Shown here: positions 6,803 through 62,470 of the stretch, in pieces
Layout: every line of letters starts with the position of its first letter
Position numbering within the stretch: position 1 is the first letter of the stretch
Assembly (NCBI RefSeq): GCF_016863315.1
Contig: NZ_BOOQ01000013.1
Span: 186,001-250,000 of the forward strand
Direction of reading: 5' to 3'
DNA length: 64,000 nt
Source of the DNA: Planotetraspora silvatica
GTDB lineage: Bacteria > Actinomycetota > Actinomycetes > Streptosporangiales > Streptosporangiaceae
Position numbers and translations under genes: made by a program
Notes under the pieces: model-generated
Told to the model about the DNA's origin: nothing
The model's input: only the letters and a program-made list of their open reading frames with translations
Database searches by the model: none

Positions 6803-9070
6803 TCAGCGGGCGGCGACGGGCACCCGCGCCCGGGCGGCCCTTCGCGCGGGGATCAGGGCGACCAGCAGCGTCGCCCCGATCGCCACGAGCAGGGCGCCGG
6901 CGAACATCCCCGGTGTGGGGGCGCGGCCGATGCCCGCCCCCACTCCGCTGCCGCGTCCCTCCAGGTCGATCAGCCCCTTCGACAGGAACGCCCCCGCGGA
7001 GCCGCCCAGCACCACCCCGGCCATCGCGAGCAGCCCGGTCCCCGTCACGAGCGTGGCCATGACCTGACGCGGGGTCAGCCCCATCGCCTTAAGCACGGCC
7101 AGGTCGAGCAGGTGGTCACGCAGGCCGAGCGCGCTCGCCGTCAGCAGATTCGCCAGGCCGATCAGGGCCAGGACGGCGACCAGCGCGACGATGATCACGC
7201 GGATGATCGACAGCCGGTCGGCCGGATTGACCGCCTGGTCCACCTCGAGGGACTGCGCCTGCAGCCGCGTGCGCACCTCTCCGGGGTCGGCGCCGGGCCG
7301 CAGGACGAGGCTGTAGAACTGCGGCGGCGTCGCGTCCTTGGCCGCCAGGCTGTCGATGCCGAACGAGAGGACCTCGCCGTCCTGCTCCGGCTCGATGACC
7401 CTGCCGACGATCTTGACGATGAGCGGCGTGCCGCCGATGGTCATGCGGACCCGGTCGCCGATGCGCAGTCCGAGCAGGTCGAGCAGGCCCTGCCCGGCCA
7501 CGGCCTCGCCCCGGTCCCGGAACATCCTGCCCTCCGCCACCGGGAACGGATACGGATCGGAGGACATGCCCAGCGCCCGGGTGCGCACCGTCCTGGTCTG
7601 CCAGGGCACGAGGGCGTCCAGTTCCACCCCCGGATAGGCGGTGACGACGTCGGGGTCGGCCATCGCCCGGCCGAGCGCCTCATTCGCCGTCAGGTCCCCC
7701 GGCCGTACGGACAGGGCGGCGGCCTGGCCGACCTGCTCGGGATGGCGGATGAACCCGTCGAGCGTGGCCCAGCAGCCGAGCCCGATGGTGATCATCATCA
7801 TGGGGATGGCCACGCCGGTCAGCGTGAGAACGGCGGAGGCCGGACGGGTGAACGCGTCCCTGGCCCCGAGGACGAGCGCGGGCGGGAGCCGTACGAGGAG
7901 GGCGACCCTGGCCAGCCGCGACAGGCGGCCGTGCGGAGGCGCCGCCGGAGCCGCGGGGATCGGCGGTGTCCCACCGCCCCGCCAGGCGGGCAGCCAGACC
8001 GCGACCAGGACCACCAGCGCCGTGCCCACCACGATCGCCGCGAGCGGCCCGGAGGAGAGCGGCACGACCACGGTGTCGGAGAGCGCGTAGGCCGTGATGA
8101 CCCGCCCGGCGACGAGGCCCAGCGCGATGCCGACCAGCCCCAGCGTGCCGTGCTCGGCGACGAGCATGCGGGTCACCTGTCCCCGGGTGAACCCGAGCGA
8201 CTTCAGCGTGGCGATGTCGCGAAGCTGGGTGAGCACCCGCCCGCCGGTGGCGTTGGCGAGGGCGAGGGCGGCGGCGACCAGTCCGGCGAGGCCGAACAGC
8301 GCCAGCAGCAGGCCGAGCAGCCGGTTGTCGAGCGCCATGGAGGCCCGGACCTCGCGCCAGGTGGACACTCGCTGGACCTGGTTGCGCAGCGTGATGACGG
8401 CCTGCTGGACCACGATGTCGGTGTATCCGGCGTCGGCCAGCCGCAGCCCCGTCACGGTCTCGGTGCGGCCGGGCGCCGGTTCGACCAGGGTGAGGGTCTG
8501 GGAGAGGGTCCAGGCGAGCCCAGGGGTCCACTCGGGATAGAAGCCCTGGTCGCCGCTCTCGGCCAGCCCCGCCACGGTGAGCGTGTGCGTGGCGCCGTTC
8601 AGTCCTGTGACGGGGAACGAGCTGCCGGGATGGAGCCCGAGCGCCCTGGCGAACGACTGCTCCACCACGACGCCGTCGGGATAGCGCGTGTCGAGCCAGC
8701 GGCCCTCTCTCAGGAGGGGCCGGGCGACGGAGGGGAAGGCGGCCGGCGTCTCCTGGAGGGCGATCGGGACCTTCCTGCCGTGGTCCACGAGCGTGGCGGG
8801 GGCGCTGCGATAAGGCCCGGCCACGTCGGTGACCCCGCCCAGTGCCCGCAGCGCCGGGACGTTCGGTGTGCCCTTGGTGTGGATCCAGACGTGGGCGCCG
8901 CGCCCTCGCTCGAACAGGCCCCGCCAGGGGTTGGTGCCGTCCTCAAGGAGCGTGGCCGCGGTGATCAGTGCCGTGACGATCCCCGCGACCGCGATGACGG
9001 TCAGCAGAGCCTGTCCCCGCCGCGCCCGGAGATCGGCCCGCACCCACCTGACCTCAGCCCGCACACCCAC
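6803..9070 (-). CDS. ABC transporter permease, FtsX/MacB type
   Basis: This membrane subunit belongs to a type VII (MacB/FtsX-like) ABC exporter. The 755-residue protein has an N-terminal membrane segment (ALLTVIAVAGIVTALITAAT) followed by a large extracytoplasmic domain. A cluster of FtsX helices lies around residues 260-370, then another anchor helix and outer domain, and a final FtsX domain with helices near the C-terminus. This duplicated layout is usual for actinobacterial members. GTG 9070 is preferred because GGAGG sits five bases upstream; GTG 9064 is the alternative. Its ATPase partner is the next gene upstream (9321-10067), and PadR lies before that. The substrate is unknown; such PadR-linked exporters often handle drugs or lipids. 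Confidence 0.88.
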   Translation of the reverse strand: MGVRAEVRWVRADLRARRGQALLTVIAVAGIVTALITAATLLEDGTNPWRGLFERGRGAHVWIHTKGTPNVPALRALGGVTDVAGPYRSAPATLVDHGRKVPIALQETPAAFPSVARPLLREGRWLDTRYPDGVVVEQSFARALGLHPGSSFPVTGLNGATHTLTVAGLAESGDQGFYPEWTPGLAWTLSQTLTLVEPAPGRTETVTGLRLADAGYTDIVVQQAVITLRNQVQRVSTWREVRASMALDNRLLGLLLALFGLAGLVAAALALANATGGRVLTQLRDIATLKSLGFTRGQVTRMLVAEHGTLGLVGIALGLVAGRVITAYALSDTVVVPLSSGPLAAIVVGTALVVLVAVWLPAWRGGGTPPIPAAPAAPPHGRLSRLARVALLVRLPPALVLGARDAFTRPASAVLTLTGVAIPMMMITIGLGCWATLDGFIRHPEQVGQAAALSVRPGDLTANEALGRAMADPDVVTAYPGVELDALVPWQTRTVRTRALGMSSDPYPFPVAEGRMFRDRGEAVAGQGLLDLLGLRIGDRVRMTIGGTPLIVKIVGRVIEPEQDGEVLSFGIDSLAAKDATPPQFYSLVLRPGADPGEVRTRLQAQSLEVDQAVNPADRLSIIRVIIVALVAVLALIGLANLLTASALGLRDHLLDLAVLKAMGLTPRQVMATLVTGTGLLAMAGVVLGGSAGAFLSKGLIDLEGRGSGVGAGIGRAPTPGMFAGALLVAIGATLLVALIPARRAARARVPVAAR

Positions 9071-9082
9071 CCCAACCTCCCC

Positions 9083-9319
9083 CGTGATCATGCACGGATT
9101 CGTGGATAGGCGCCCGACCTGGGCCTTCCCCGGTCGTGATCATGCATAGATTCGTGGTCATGGCCACCGACCAGCACCTCCACTCGCCGTGATCATGCAC
9201 AGGTTCGGCGCCGTACGGTCCGACCTGCGGTTGCACGGTTCGTGATCATGCACGCTTTCGGAATCATGCTTCCCGACCTGGAGCGATGCCGTCCGTGATC
9301 ATGTACGTGCTCATCGGCG
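9083..9319 (+). repeat. Phased 52-53 bp repeat array A (four units and a partial fifth)
   Basis: Units begin at 9083, 9135, 9188, 9241 and 9294, giving spacings of 52, 53, 53 and 53 bases. Each opens with about 20 conserved bases, consensus CGTGATCATGCACRNRTTCG. A variable stretch of 12-13 bases follows, then a second conserved block, YGACCTGG or a close variant, and a variable tail. The last unit is truncated. The array fills the whole gap between the ATPase 3-prime end and the permease 5-prime end. The conserved head can form a small CGTG/CACG hairpin in some units. Confidence 0.88.
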
Positions 9320-10081: not shown

Positions 10082-10199
10082 GTGCATGATCACGAAGGGA
10101 ATCTCCGCAGGTCGAGCGGCATGATCACGAATGTGTGCATGATCACGACCAGAAAAGGCCCAGGTCAGGCGCCTATCCACGAATCCGTGCATGATCACG
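10082..10199 (-). repeat. Phased 52-53 bp repeat array B (two full units plus partial)
   Basis: Read on the minus strand, heads of the same repeat family start at 10199, 10147 and 10094 (spacings 52 and 53). An extra TGATCATG core lies inside the second unit at about 10121-10129. The array runs up to the ribosome binding site of the ATPase gene and faces array A across it. Its second unit closely resembles the second unit of array D, 52 kb away. Confidence 0.85.
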
Positions 10200-10236
10200 G
10201 CGGAGGTGGGGGTGAGAGTGGGGGGTGGGGGGAGCA

Positions 10237-27109: not shown

Positions 27110-27235
27110 CGTGATCATGCACAGGTTCGCCGGCAACCCGGTTGACCTGGGACGACACAGTTCGTGATCATGCACAGATTCGGCGAAACCCAGCCTGACC
27201 AGGCCAGGCACAAGTCGTGATCATGCACGGAGGGT
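27110..27235 (+). repeat. Phased 53-bp repeat array C (two units and a partial third)
   Basis: Heads of the CGTGATCATGCAC family begin at 27110, 27163 and 27216, exactly 53 bases apart each time. The first two units carry the second block TGACCTGG or TGACCAGG at the expected offset, and the third is truncated. The rest of the gap between glgX and mscL (26960-27549) is GC-rich with no gene I can support. Confidence 0.87.
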
Positions 27236-57482: not shown

Positions 57483-58244
57483 ATGACGCACAACCGCATT
57501 CGGTATGCCGCGGGATCGGACATCGGGCGGTCCCGGACGAAGAACGAGGACTCGGTGTACGCGAGCGAGCACCTGCTCGCCATCGCCGACGGCATGGGCG
57601 GGCACGGCCACGGGGACGTCGCCAGCGCGGCGGCCATCGAGGCGCTGTCCGCCGTCGACGGCGGCGCTCCGCCCGAGGACCTCATCACCACGCTGGAGAG
57701 CGGCGTGCGCGAAGCGGCCCGCAGGCTCAGCGAACTGGCCGAGCACGATCCCACGCTGGAGCGGATGGGAACCACGATCACCGCGATGTTGTGGGACGGC
57801 GAGAGCCGGTTCGCGGTGGCGCACGTCGGCGACTCCCGGGCGTACATGTTGCGGGACGGCGGTCTCTACCAGATCACCCGCGATCACACCCTCGTGCAGT
57901 CGCTGGTCGACGACGGGCACATGAGCCCCGACCAGGCGGCCAAGCATCCGAACCGGTCACTGCTGTTGCGTGCGCTGGAGACGAGCGGCCTGGCCGACCC
58001 CGACCTGTCCCTGCGCGACGCGCATCCGGGAGACCGTTATCTGCTCTGCTCGGACGGGCTGACCGCCGTGCTGGAGCCGGAGACGCTTCACCAGGTGCTG
58101 ACCGCGATCGACGAGCCCGCCGAGGCCGTCCGCCGCCTGATCGAGCTCGCCAACGAGGGGGGCGGGCCCGACAACATCACGTGCATCGTCGCCGACGTCG
58201 CCTTCGACAACCAGAACGGCGACGGCCCGCAGCCCACCCCGTGA
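57483..58244 (+). CDS. PP2C family protein serine/threonine phosphatase
   Basis: The 253-residue phosphatase has the PP2C motifs in order: GRSRTKNEDSV (about 15-25), IADGMGGHGHGDVAS with metal-binding Asp36, GTTITAMLW, AHVGDSRAYML, ITRDHTLVQSLVDDG, LCSDGLT and GPDNITCIVADV. It is soluble and lacks the C-terminal helix and outer domain of PstP. It should dephosphorylate Ser/Thr in proteins; the nearby kinase at 54371 is the obvious counterpart. The gene is divergent from the DNA methylase. A tandem 14-bp repeat starts at its stop codon. Confidence 0.96.
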   Translation: MTHNRIRYAAGSDIGRSRTKNEDSVYASEHLLAIADGMGGHGHGDVASAAAIEALSAVDGGAPPEDLITTLESGVREAARRLSELAEHDPTLERMGTTITAMLWDGESRFAVAHVGDSRAYMLRDGGLYQITRDHTLVQSLVDDGHMSPDQAAKHPNRSLLLRALETSGLADPDLSLRDAHPGDRYLLCSDGLTAVLEPETLHQVLTAIDEPAEAVRRLIELANEGGGPDNITCIVADVAFDNQNGDGPQPTP

Positions 58245-58283
58245 TCAGCTCTGCGTGATCAGCGCTGTGTGAGCAGCTCTGCG
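58242..58283 (+). repeat. Three 14-bp tandem repeats overlapping the PP2C stop codon
   Basis: TGATCAGCTCTGCG, TGATCAGCGCTGTG and TGAGCAGCTCTGCG follow one another without gaps, starting with the TGA stop. Each unit carries a TGA in the same phase. The remainder of the gap to 58475 contains no gene that I see. Confidence 0.7.
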
Positions 58284-58475
58284 TGCACCCGCGATGTACG
58301 GCCGGCCCCGGCGGCGGCCGTACGAGCGAGTGCACCTTCGCCTGGCCGTTTCACCCGTGCAGTTTTGCCCCTATTTTGTCATTGATCCGTTACTTTCAGT
58401 AATCAATGCGGAATATCACCGCATTAAGGGATCTCGCCAATTCGGGGGCACGATCACCGGGCGGAGGGAGTGCAC

Positions 58476-61546: not shown

Positions 61547-62350
61547 ATGCGCCTCTATACCGTTGATTCGTTCAGCGACCGGCCCTTCCGCGGCAATCCC
61601 GCCGGGGTATGTCTCCTCGACACCCCCGCGCCGGACGAGTGGATGCAGGCCGTCGCCGCCGAGATGCGCCACTCCGAGACGGCCTTCGTCCTCGACCAGG
61701 ACGGCGGGCCGCGCTCTCTGCGCTGGTTCACGCCCACGGTCGAGGTCGCCCTCTGCGGGCACGCCACGCTCGCCACGGCCCACGTCCTGTACTCCCTCGG
61801 AGCCTCGGGACGGCTGGAGTTCTCCACCCTGAGCGGCGTCCTGACCACAGACCAGGCCGGCGACCAGGCAGGAGACGGTCTCATCACGATGGACTTCCCG
61901 GCCTCCCGGCCCACGGAGGCGCAGGCTCCCGAGGGCCTGGTGGAGTCCCTCGGGGTGAAACCCCTCTGGGTGGGGCGCAGTCAATTCGACTTCCTGGTGG
62001 AGGTCGAGAACGCCGATGTCGTACGGTCGCTGACGCCGGATCTCGACCTGCTGAGCACCGTCGAGACCCGGGGCGTCATGGTGACCGCTCCCGGGGACGA
62101 CGGGGAGGCCGACTTCGTCTCCCGTTTCTTCGGCCCCCGGGCGGGCGTCCCCGAGGACCCGGTCACCGGATCCGCCCACTGCGTGCTCTCGCCGTACTGG
62201 TCGGAGAGGTTCGGCCGCGACACCCTCGTCGGCGCGCAACTCTCCGAGCGGGGCGGAATCGTGCGCACCACCCTGCGCGGGGACCGCGTCGAGCTCGCCG
62301 GCCGTGCCGTGACCATCTGGTCCGGCAATCTCACCGTCCCCCTGCCGTGA
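61547..62350 (+). CDS. PhzF family isomerase
   Basis: The 267-residue protein of the PhzF/diaminopimelate-epimerase fold has FRGNPAGVCLLD near residue 16, the catalytic Glu in RHSETAFVLDQDGG, LRWFTPTVEVALCGHATLAT, and in the second half GVPEDPVTGSAHCVLSPYW. Family members are isomerases or of unknown activity; no phenazine genes are nearby, so phenazine synthesis is not implied. Its TGA stop codon is part of the first unit of repeat array D. Confidence 0.93.
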   Translation: MRLYTVDSFSDRPFRGNPAGVCLLDTPAPDEWMQAVAAEMRHSETAFVLDQDGGPRSLRWFTPTVEVALCGHATLATAHVLYSLGASGRLEFSTLSGVLTTDQAGDQAGDGLITMDFPASRPTEAQAPEGLVESLGVKPLWVGRSQFDFLVEVENADVVRSLTPDLDLLSTVETRGVMVTAPGDDGEADFVSRFFGPRAGVPEDPVTGSAHCVLSPYWSERFGRDTLVGAQLSERGGIVRTTLRGDRVELAGRAVTIWSGNLTVPLP

Positions 62351-62470
62351 TCATGCACAGGTTCGACGGCATCACCCCTGGCCTGCGCGAACATCGGGCG
62401 TGATCATGCACACATTCGGTGATCATGGCGCTGACCCGGCCATTCACACTTCGTGATCACGCATGGGCCG
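62346..62470 (+). repeat. Phased 53-bp repeat array D (two units and a degenerate third)
   Basis: Heads start at 62346, 62399 and 62452, exactly 53 bases apart. The first begins inside the PhzF stop codon (CCG TGA). The third, CGTGATCACGCATG, contains the stop codon of the convergent gene. The array therefore occupies the whole space between two gene ends. Its second unit is nearly the same as the second unit of array B for about 38 bases. Confidence 0.87.

Follow-up and report, generated by a model that had tools for sequence, protein, structure and literature searches.

Arrays of a conserved core with a 53-bp period near gene 3' ends in Planotetraspora: a candidate family of protein-binding sites

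Introduction

REP sequences, REPINs and BIMEs are short extragenic repeats that occur in hundreds of copies, form inverted pairs and often lie at the 3' ends of genes. MIRUs of mycobacteria and BOX elements of pneumococcus are dispersed intergenic modules with a variable number of tandem units, and MIRUs often overlap stop codons. Tn7-like ends contain several asymmetric protein-binding sites in tandem, facing inward, and insertion takes place downstream of a gene. In TTF-I/Reb1-type terminator arrays and in Tus-Ter, asymmetric sites located after genes act as roadblocks.

The dispersed intergenic repeat of Planotetraspora silvatica analysed here belongs to a known kind, and is like REP/REPIN/BIME elements with RAYT in its copy number, inverted pairs and 3'-end siting. 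It differs from them in its strict 53-bp tandem runs, its bare closing core and the lack of a Y1_Tnp match in the P. silvatica genome; the REP unit is a palindrome of 20–40 bp with a GTAG or CGTC tag, whereas the unit here is an asymmetric 52–53-mer. The main text of a paper on GTAG- and CGTC-tagged REPs (PMC3733652) does not contain the string 'actinobac'. Unlike the unrelated spacers of CRISPR, the fillers between cores have TTCG and GACCWG blocks in common, and they differ from each other by substitutions. MIRU and BOX have other sequences; here only core blocks are kept, the nearly neutral filler is of fixed length and the arms face inward. In contrast to Tn7-like ends, the sites are conserved in place and the genome lacks a PF09299-type transposase. 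TTF-I/Reb1 arrays and Tus-Ter, which serve as the working analogy for the boundary model discussed below, are known from one locus or few sites, whereas about 430 arrays per genome are expected here by extrapolation from 42 arrays in 852 kb. The TAACTGA direct repeats of Beggiatoaceae are patchy, intergenic and built on one short word, the majority lying just upstream of putative start codons (PMC4679880); the present arrays lie near gene 3' ends with a 53-bp period. Papers retrieved by the sequence itself were, to judge by title, unrelated; one of them, PMC5839063, gives a predicted ArgR site in S. coelicolor. No description of the element was found in openly licensed PMC papers. As far as the open-access literature was searched, no described element combines selection in place on core and distance with a nearly neutral filler, arms that face inward and a common 12-mer whose extensions differ by lineage.

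Results

Four arrays in the P. silvatica window

The window is the whole 64-kb stretch of DNA that was analysed, positions 186001–250000 of contig C13 in the 8.66-Mb draft genome of P. silvatica (G000). A sequence-only reading had reported repeat heads at four places in it, and all four were recovered at their coordinates. The core CGTGATCATGCAC recurs there every 52 or 53 bp, and the ten intervals counted in that reading were confirmed as 52, 53, 53, 53 / 52, 53 / 53, 53 / 53, 53. The features are as follows.

9083..9306, + strand: four units and a closing core (5 cores), with cores at 9083, 9135, 9188, 9241 and 9294
9063..9082, + strand: C-rich leader 5' of the outermost core, seen in the sequence, a trend in 43 arrays
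10082..10199, - strand: two units and a closing core (3 cores), with cores at 10187-10199, 10135-10147 and 10082-10094
10200..10219, - strand: C-rich leader (G-rich on the + strand) 5' of the outermost core of the minus array
27110..27228, + strand: two units and a closing core, with cores at 27110, 27163 and 27216
62346..62464, + strand: two units and a closing core, with cores at 62346, 62399 and 62452, the third with 2 mismatches
62348..62350, + strand: TGA in the first core, the stop codon of a PhzF-like gene (61547-62350)

When the 20-mer head was searched with at most 3 mismatches, 13 matches were found in the window (0.18 expected), one of which (26539, 3 mismatches) is isolated. Gene calls were made with the author's codon-usage script trained on this genome and are not curated annotation. 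The five window neighbour genes scanned are ABC ATPase, PadR, debranching-like enzyme, MscL and PhzF. The array at 9083..9306 is flanked by the ABC ATPase gene and, to the left, by a gene called at 6803-9091 (-), which by eye appears to encode an FtsX-like permease and whose true start is uncertain. The array at 10082..10199 has the PadR-type regulator gene on one side and the ABC ATPase gene on the other. Both arrays have cores at their orthologous places in each of the five other genomes that were compared. The array at 27110..27228 sits in a rare divergent context between a debranching-enzyme-like gene (CBM_48 and alpha-amylase domain; -) and mscL (+), and has a simple orthologous place in none of the five, where the flanks are 2.5–17.8 kb apart. 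The array at 62346..62464 is bordered on either side by convergent genes; cores occupy the orthologous place in all four genomes with both flanks, the flanks not being found in G059. Elsewhere in the window, a 14-bp tandem repeat, CGTGATCAGCTCTG, is present in 3.3 copies at 58240-58285; it has CGTGATCA in common with the core, differs in the remainder and is probably unrelated.

Structure of the unit and the array

A consensus of 120 units contains the core at positions 1–13, a variable RNR at 14–16, TTCG at 17–20, YGACCWG(C/G) at 34–41 and a weaker AAC.C near 45–49. The core itself reads CGTGATCATGCA(C). The second block had earlier been given as YGACCTGG at a fixed offset; the offset holds, and the strict word gives way to the looser YGACCWG(C/G). 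In 852 kb of G000, 42 arrays of 2–5 cores were found. Their innermost cores are followed by TTC at 17–19 in only 3 of 42 cases and by a GACC-like block in 3 of 42, compared with 123 and 109, respectively, of 128 other cores. The innermost core is thus usually bare (39 of 42), so that an array consists of n units and a closing core. The leader, taken as the 20 bases 5' of the first core in 43 arrays, has a C content of 0.52–0.58 and a G content of 0.17–0.19, against 0.34–0.39 and 0.33–0.35 in the first 20 bases after 139 array-free stop codons. Adjoining units are identical or nearly so at one place in G059 (C1:477558-477727), a sign of recent unit duplication. The palindrome GCCGTACGGC is separately over-represented in the samples (66 versus 7.8 expected in G000, 32 versus 3.9 in G059, with both strands counted).

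Copy number and spacing

The exact pattern GTGATCATGCAC is present in 698 copies in G000, and the reversed control pattern in none. Throughout G000, 462 of the 465 same-strand pairs of exact GTGATCATGCA within a range of 38–68 bp are spaced by 52–53 bp. The corresponding numbers are 376/381 in G104, 410/435 in P. kaengkrachanensis (G125), 81/89 in G077, 690/729 in P. thailandica (G022) and 314/344 in Planotetraspora sp. A-T 1434 (G059). Consistently, with cores of at most 2 mismatches in 852 kb of G000, same-strand spacings below 200 bp were 53 bp in 119 cases and 52 bp in 9; the 8 remaining spacings come from cores that match poorly. Variants by one helical turn, such as 42 or 63 bp, would keep the cores on the same face of the helix and are almost never used in G000, where just three of the 465 pairs fall outside 52–53 bp. 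The distance itself, perhaps through protein-protein contact, therefore seems to matter.

Two further regularities were considered. Regular spacing of elements along the chromosome was too weak to retain (CV 0.72 vs 0.93, P 0.06; 0.69 vs 0.91, P 0.04; 0.75 vs 0.88, P 0.17). A 10.6-bp AT rhythm within the unit ranks first among 12 harmonics in G000, with only 0.08 of the power, and does not rank first in G059 or G022; it was dropped as evidence.

Gene context and orientation

All 24 array pairs at most 300 bp apart in the G000 and G059 samples run + then -, that is inward. Genome-wide, the five genomes of the window genus contain no short outward pair, against 15, 17, 17, 7 and 33 inward ones. 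Outward and inward short pairs number 2 and 16 in G059, 0 and 3 in G325, 3 and 31 in G384, and 6 and 11 in G531. Two g50 genomes are reversed, with 30 and 19 outward against 7 and 9 inward pairs. The g50 core is found mostly in outward pairs whose core starts are 28 bp apart, linked in places via inward pairs 57–60 bp apart, which represents a different architecture (L099-L107).

The G000 and G059 samples contain 66 elements, one of which overlaps a called gene. The remaining 65 occupy 24 convergent, 39 tandem and 2 divergent gene gaps, whereas background gaps of at least 100 bp are 12–15% convergent, 61–63% tandem and 22–27% divergent. The outer edge of the array is a median of 16 or 21 bp (n=30 and 29) from the stop codon of the gene pointing at it. 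At 9 gene ends in G000, which fall among 31 elements in the sampled part, and at 4 in G059, the gene terminates on the TGA within the first core. Such a siting at 3' ends might mean no more than that insertions are tolerated where no promoter is hit. For four arrays in a divergent gap or on the promoter side of a gene, the neighbouring genes were judged by eye as membrane, metabolic and IclR-like regulator genes; considered as candidates for the factor, none pointed to it.

Single arrays in tandem gene pairs of Planotetraspora lie with transcription in 12 cases and against it in 13. One-orientation clusters in the tandem gene pairs of G325 and G384 lie with transcription in 7 cases and against it in 1, with one more against in G531/G443 and one with in g50; 9 of 44 clusters in the other lineages fell within called genes. 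The bias in G325 and G384 fits a transcript-level role in those two lineages.

Evolution of the arrays at orthologous places

Arrays with flanks in both genomes were compared base by base, as summarized below. Unit cores were required to have at most 2 mismatches in both genomes, which favours conserved cores; TTCG and block 2 are free of this bias except by linkage.

G000 vs G104: core positions 1–12, 9/443 bases differing; TTCG, 1/96; block 2, 13/192; filler, 43/309 and 45/288
G000 vs G125: core, 15/394; TTCG, 4/79; block 2, 32/160; filler, 78/250 and 90/240
G000 vs G077: core, 11/259; TTCG, 2/36; block 2, 17/72; filler, 34/113 and 33/108

Overall, cores diverge by 2–4% and filler by 14–38%. 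TTCG evolves more slowly than positions 21–33 (p=0.0001 for G104, 4e-7 for G125 and 0.0017 for G077), a contrast that is not an artefact of the search because heads were searched with the first 13 bases alone. Block 2 evolves more slowly in two of three comparisons (p 0.004, 0.0006 and 0.3 for G104, G125 and G077). Post-core bases, blocks included, differ at 116/959=0.121 from G104 and 236/797=0.296 from G125, compared with 123/833=0.148 and 133/449=0.296 in convergent intergenic DNA, for which just 833 and 449 aligned bases were available. The filler thus looks nearly neutral in sequence. Accelerated filler evolution, hinted at by the overall control (0.051 and 0.123), disappeared against the convergent gaps.

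The length of the unit behaves differently from its sequence. None of 24 orthologous units changed length relative to G104 and none of 20 relative to G125, where about 11 and about 19 gap openings were expected (Poisson 2e-5 and 5e-9) from 0.094 and 0.081 openings per substitution in 77 and 66 array-free gaps, whatever their orientation. The same G000 units enter both sets of comparisons, and the test, which left out unit pairs differing by more than 8 bp, measures net length only. Together, none of 44 units changed where about 30 openings were expected, in line with the selection on spacing suggested by the sequence-only reading; in G077, 7 of 9 orthologous units kept their length and 2 changed. 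The lack of length change despite substitutions indicates selection on the core-to-core distance. Selection in place on the core and on this distance, as judged from these alignments, is the firmest result of the analysis and is weaker in G077.

Arrays differ among species by whole units, and elements are absent at some orthologous places (G022 92174, compared with four genomes; G059 12322, compared with five). The head also varies by lineage. In the G022 sample, 15 of 16 exact cores with TTC at 17–19 read CGTGATCATGCAGAAGTTC (GAAGTTC), a form found 0 times in samples of the other five genomes. At base 20, G059 has C in 73 of 86 cores, whereas G000 has G in 115 of 136. At the ABC locus, G000, G022 and G059 each carry their own head form at the orthologous place. 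A head change common to a whole lineage suggests that the sites follow one recogniser. Filler between G022 and the other species is hardly alignable by eye, and at that distance turnover of arrays in place is conceivable.

Distribution beyond Planotetraspora

Among 297 genomes of the family, GTGATCATGCAC is present in 165–698 copies in all five window-genus genomes and in 552 in G059, with lower counts in g50 (2, 28 and 31), g51 (37) and one g65 genome (24). In a class sample of 394 genomes that includes G000 and is not the whole class, CGTGATCATGCA reaches at least 10 copies in 8: G000 (751), G325 (288), G384 (287), G531 (100), G323 (35), G443 (29), G366 (22) and G119 (20). A wider contig scan gave 79 of 80 loci in Planotetraspora among the matches listed. 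The G119 locus is identical to a Microbispora bryophytorum locus (L249, L170), and is of the 53-bp, GACCTG type.

The architecture was read from sequence pieces of G325, G384, G531, G443, G366, G119 and g50 (not G323 or G051). The extension of the 12-mer differs among lineages, being AATCCCGCCACCC in G325, NRTCCTGG in G384, CGCCAGCGC in G531 and GTTGTTCG in g50. Among the matches listed, core spacing has a mode of 37 bp in G325 (32/99 pairs) and of 34–35 bp in G384 (18/50 pairs). It is loose in both, covering 30–59 bp in the range searched; the pairs used are the 99 of 169 and 50 of 105 that were listed and lay within 29–59 bp, and one of 100 listed rows for G325, a match spanning the inner core, was dropped. 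The strict 53-bp period is thus a trait of the Planotetraspora/Microbispora type and not of the core, and a fixed distance is not essential to every system with this core. An earlier proposal that the heads are phased by five helical turns is compatible with the data within Planotetraspora; as a general rule, strict helical phasing is ruled out by the modes in G325 and G384, the former corresponding to 3.5 turns.

G340, of the same genus as G384, has 0 cores against 287. No comparable core family appeared among the top over-represented 10-mers of 276 kb of G340. In that sample (L286-L301), GATGCTACCC occurs 10 times where 0.4 are expected and is possibly another dispersed repeat. Between the arms in G325 (L264, L266) lies a second inverted motif, CAGAATGCTG, with near-complements and 10 copies in 160 kb.

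Relation to mobile elements

The arrays could be remains of a miniature mobile repeat family, REP/BIME/MITE-like or derived from empty Tn7-like ends, that spread long ago. Hundreds of copies with two inward arms, the unoccupied orthologous places and the cores that supply stop codons would suit such a family, as would the few elements with clear recent copying between their arms and the patchy occurrence of a single 12-mer core across families. PF09299 (Mu-type transposase C-terminal domain) is also present in 7 of 16 core-rich genomes and in none of 6 core-poor ones, but none was found in G000. The Y1 transposase (Y1_Tnp, PF01797) tends the other way, with 0 matches in G000 and absence from 14 of 16 core-rich genomes against presence in 5 of 12 core-poor ones. 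When occupied and empty loci were compared by eye, no target duplication was apparent. Two exact patterns gave no match in viral contigs, and plasmids searched with one array matched it over no more than 22 bases, in 11 Rhizobium records (E 0.8). The known mobile element considered in the sequence-only reading was thus not found in these searches of G000 and the databases. Purifying selection on the core, TTCG and unit length at fixed places is, moreover, not expected of decaying copies. A past mobile origin of the arrays is possible; as the explanation of what they are now, a mobile family is on the unlikely side.

Pairing and folding of transcripts

A device acting in the transcript, be it a long two-arm hairpin, a C-rich Rho-type or intrinsic bidirectional terminator or a bound 3'-UTR motif, would agree with the 3'-end siting, the pairable inward arms, the C-rich, G-poor leader and the 7 to 1 orientation of clusters in G325 and G384. 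Folding is slightly more favourable for 12 single arms than for their mononucleotide shuffles (mean z -1.6), the innermost inverted cores form short centres of 4–11 bp in 11 of 30 pairs, some of them orthologous, and G531 has hairpins of 47–52 bp. Bases 14–16 match between arms above expectation in G059 (23/2000 permutations), and the post-core bases of palindromic centres show a mild matching excess in g50 (16 centres; 26/5000 permutations). The same post-core bases, however, change independently in G531 (11 centres) and nearly so in G384 (31 centres; 295/5000 permutations). In two of three groups, filler in one arm of an element resembles that of the other arm no more than that of other loci; in G000 the excess is marginal (110/2000). 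Column dependence in the 120 units is strongest between adjacent positions, as expected of words in DNA; of the column pairs distant enough for base pairing, 35-42 has a small Watson-Crick excess (0.52 vs 0.42), and no stem is apparent in these units. Arrays bracketing an intrinsic terminator were rejected, since a perfect stem of at least 9 occurs in 1 of 19 longer centres, with one interrupted stem seen by eye. No Rfam match reached the gathering score in the 64-kb window. The tandem-pair arrays of Planotetraspora show no preference (12 vs 13), and a transcript device has no need for a fixed filler length. A structured RNA family, the other option offered by the sequence-only reading, is therefore weakly or not supported; the transcript-level role appears weakened by these sequence comparisons, and as a general explanation it is improbable.

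Ordinary tandem growth with unit-by-unit gene conversion, in which homogenisation of functionless repeats keeps cores and period, would account for the whole-unit differences between species, for the likeness of G059 units within an arm (0.61 vs 0.38 between loci, some neighbours being identical) and for the over-dispersed differences per unit against G125 (mean 11.8, variance 20.7), but is very improbable, because the differences are near Poisson against G104 (mean 4.8, variance 6.5) with 0 of 23 units replaced (1–9 differences) and because conversion that keeps 13–20 bp yet spares the filler is implausible.

Discussion

A DNA-binding protein, the first of the options raised by the sequence-only reading, is favoured over the alternatives above, and that these are protein-binding arrays is predicted with somewhat better than even confidence. 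The observed positions, spacing, orientation and selection would be explained together if the arrays are rows of asymmetric sites for a putative sequence-specific DNA-binding protein or complex, an overall account in which we place about even confidence. The fixed filler length would hold successive cores 52–53 bp apart, about five helical turns, so that protein on one core could contact protein on the next. TTCG and block 2 may provide auxiliary contacts, and the result would be a nucleoprotein ridge. Two inward-facing rows could then pair, or block from both sides. The C-rich leader falls outside what this model explains.

The siting at 3' ends, the avoidance of divergent gaps and the lack of transcription polarity in the tandem pairs of Planotetraspora make a boundary the likeliest job of such an array. 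As a roadblock or insulator, it would restrain read-through and keep transcription units apart. Granted that the arrays bind protein, the case for this role is evenly balanced.

Extended to the chromosome, the protein-binding model would describe an actinomycete boundary or organiser system comprising hundreds of inward arrays and one predicted protein that recognises CGTGATCATGCA. Its specificity beyond the 12-mer would shift by lineage and drag hundreds of sites along, and core-poor relatives would do without it. This broader picture is tentative and less likely than not. If the arrays are indeed rows of protein-binding sites, these genomes would contain hundreds of natural arrays whose core and distance are under selection and whose filler is free to drift. 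They would be ready material for testing how spacing is read by a bacterial protein and what delimits transcription units at their 3' side. The scattered occurrence of the 12-mer in distant families, together with a core-poor sister genome such as G340 beside G384, would provide a comparative route to the factor.
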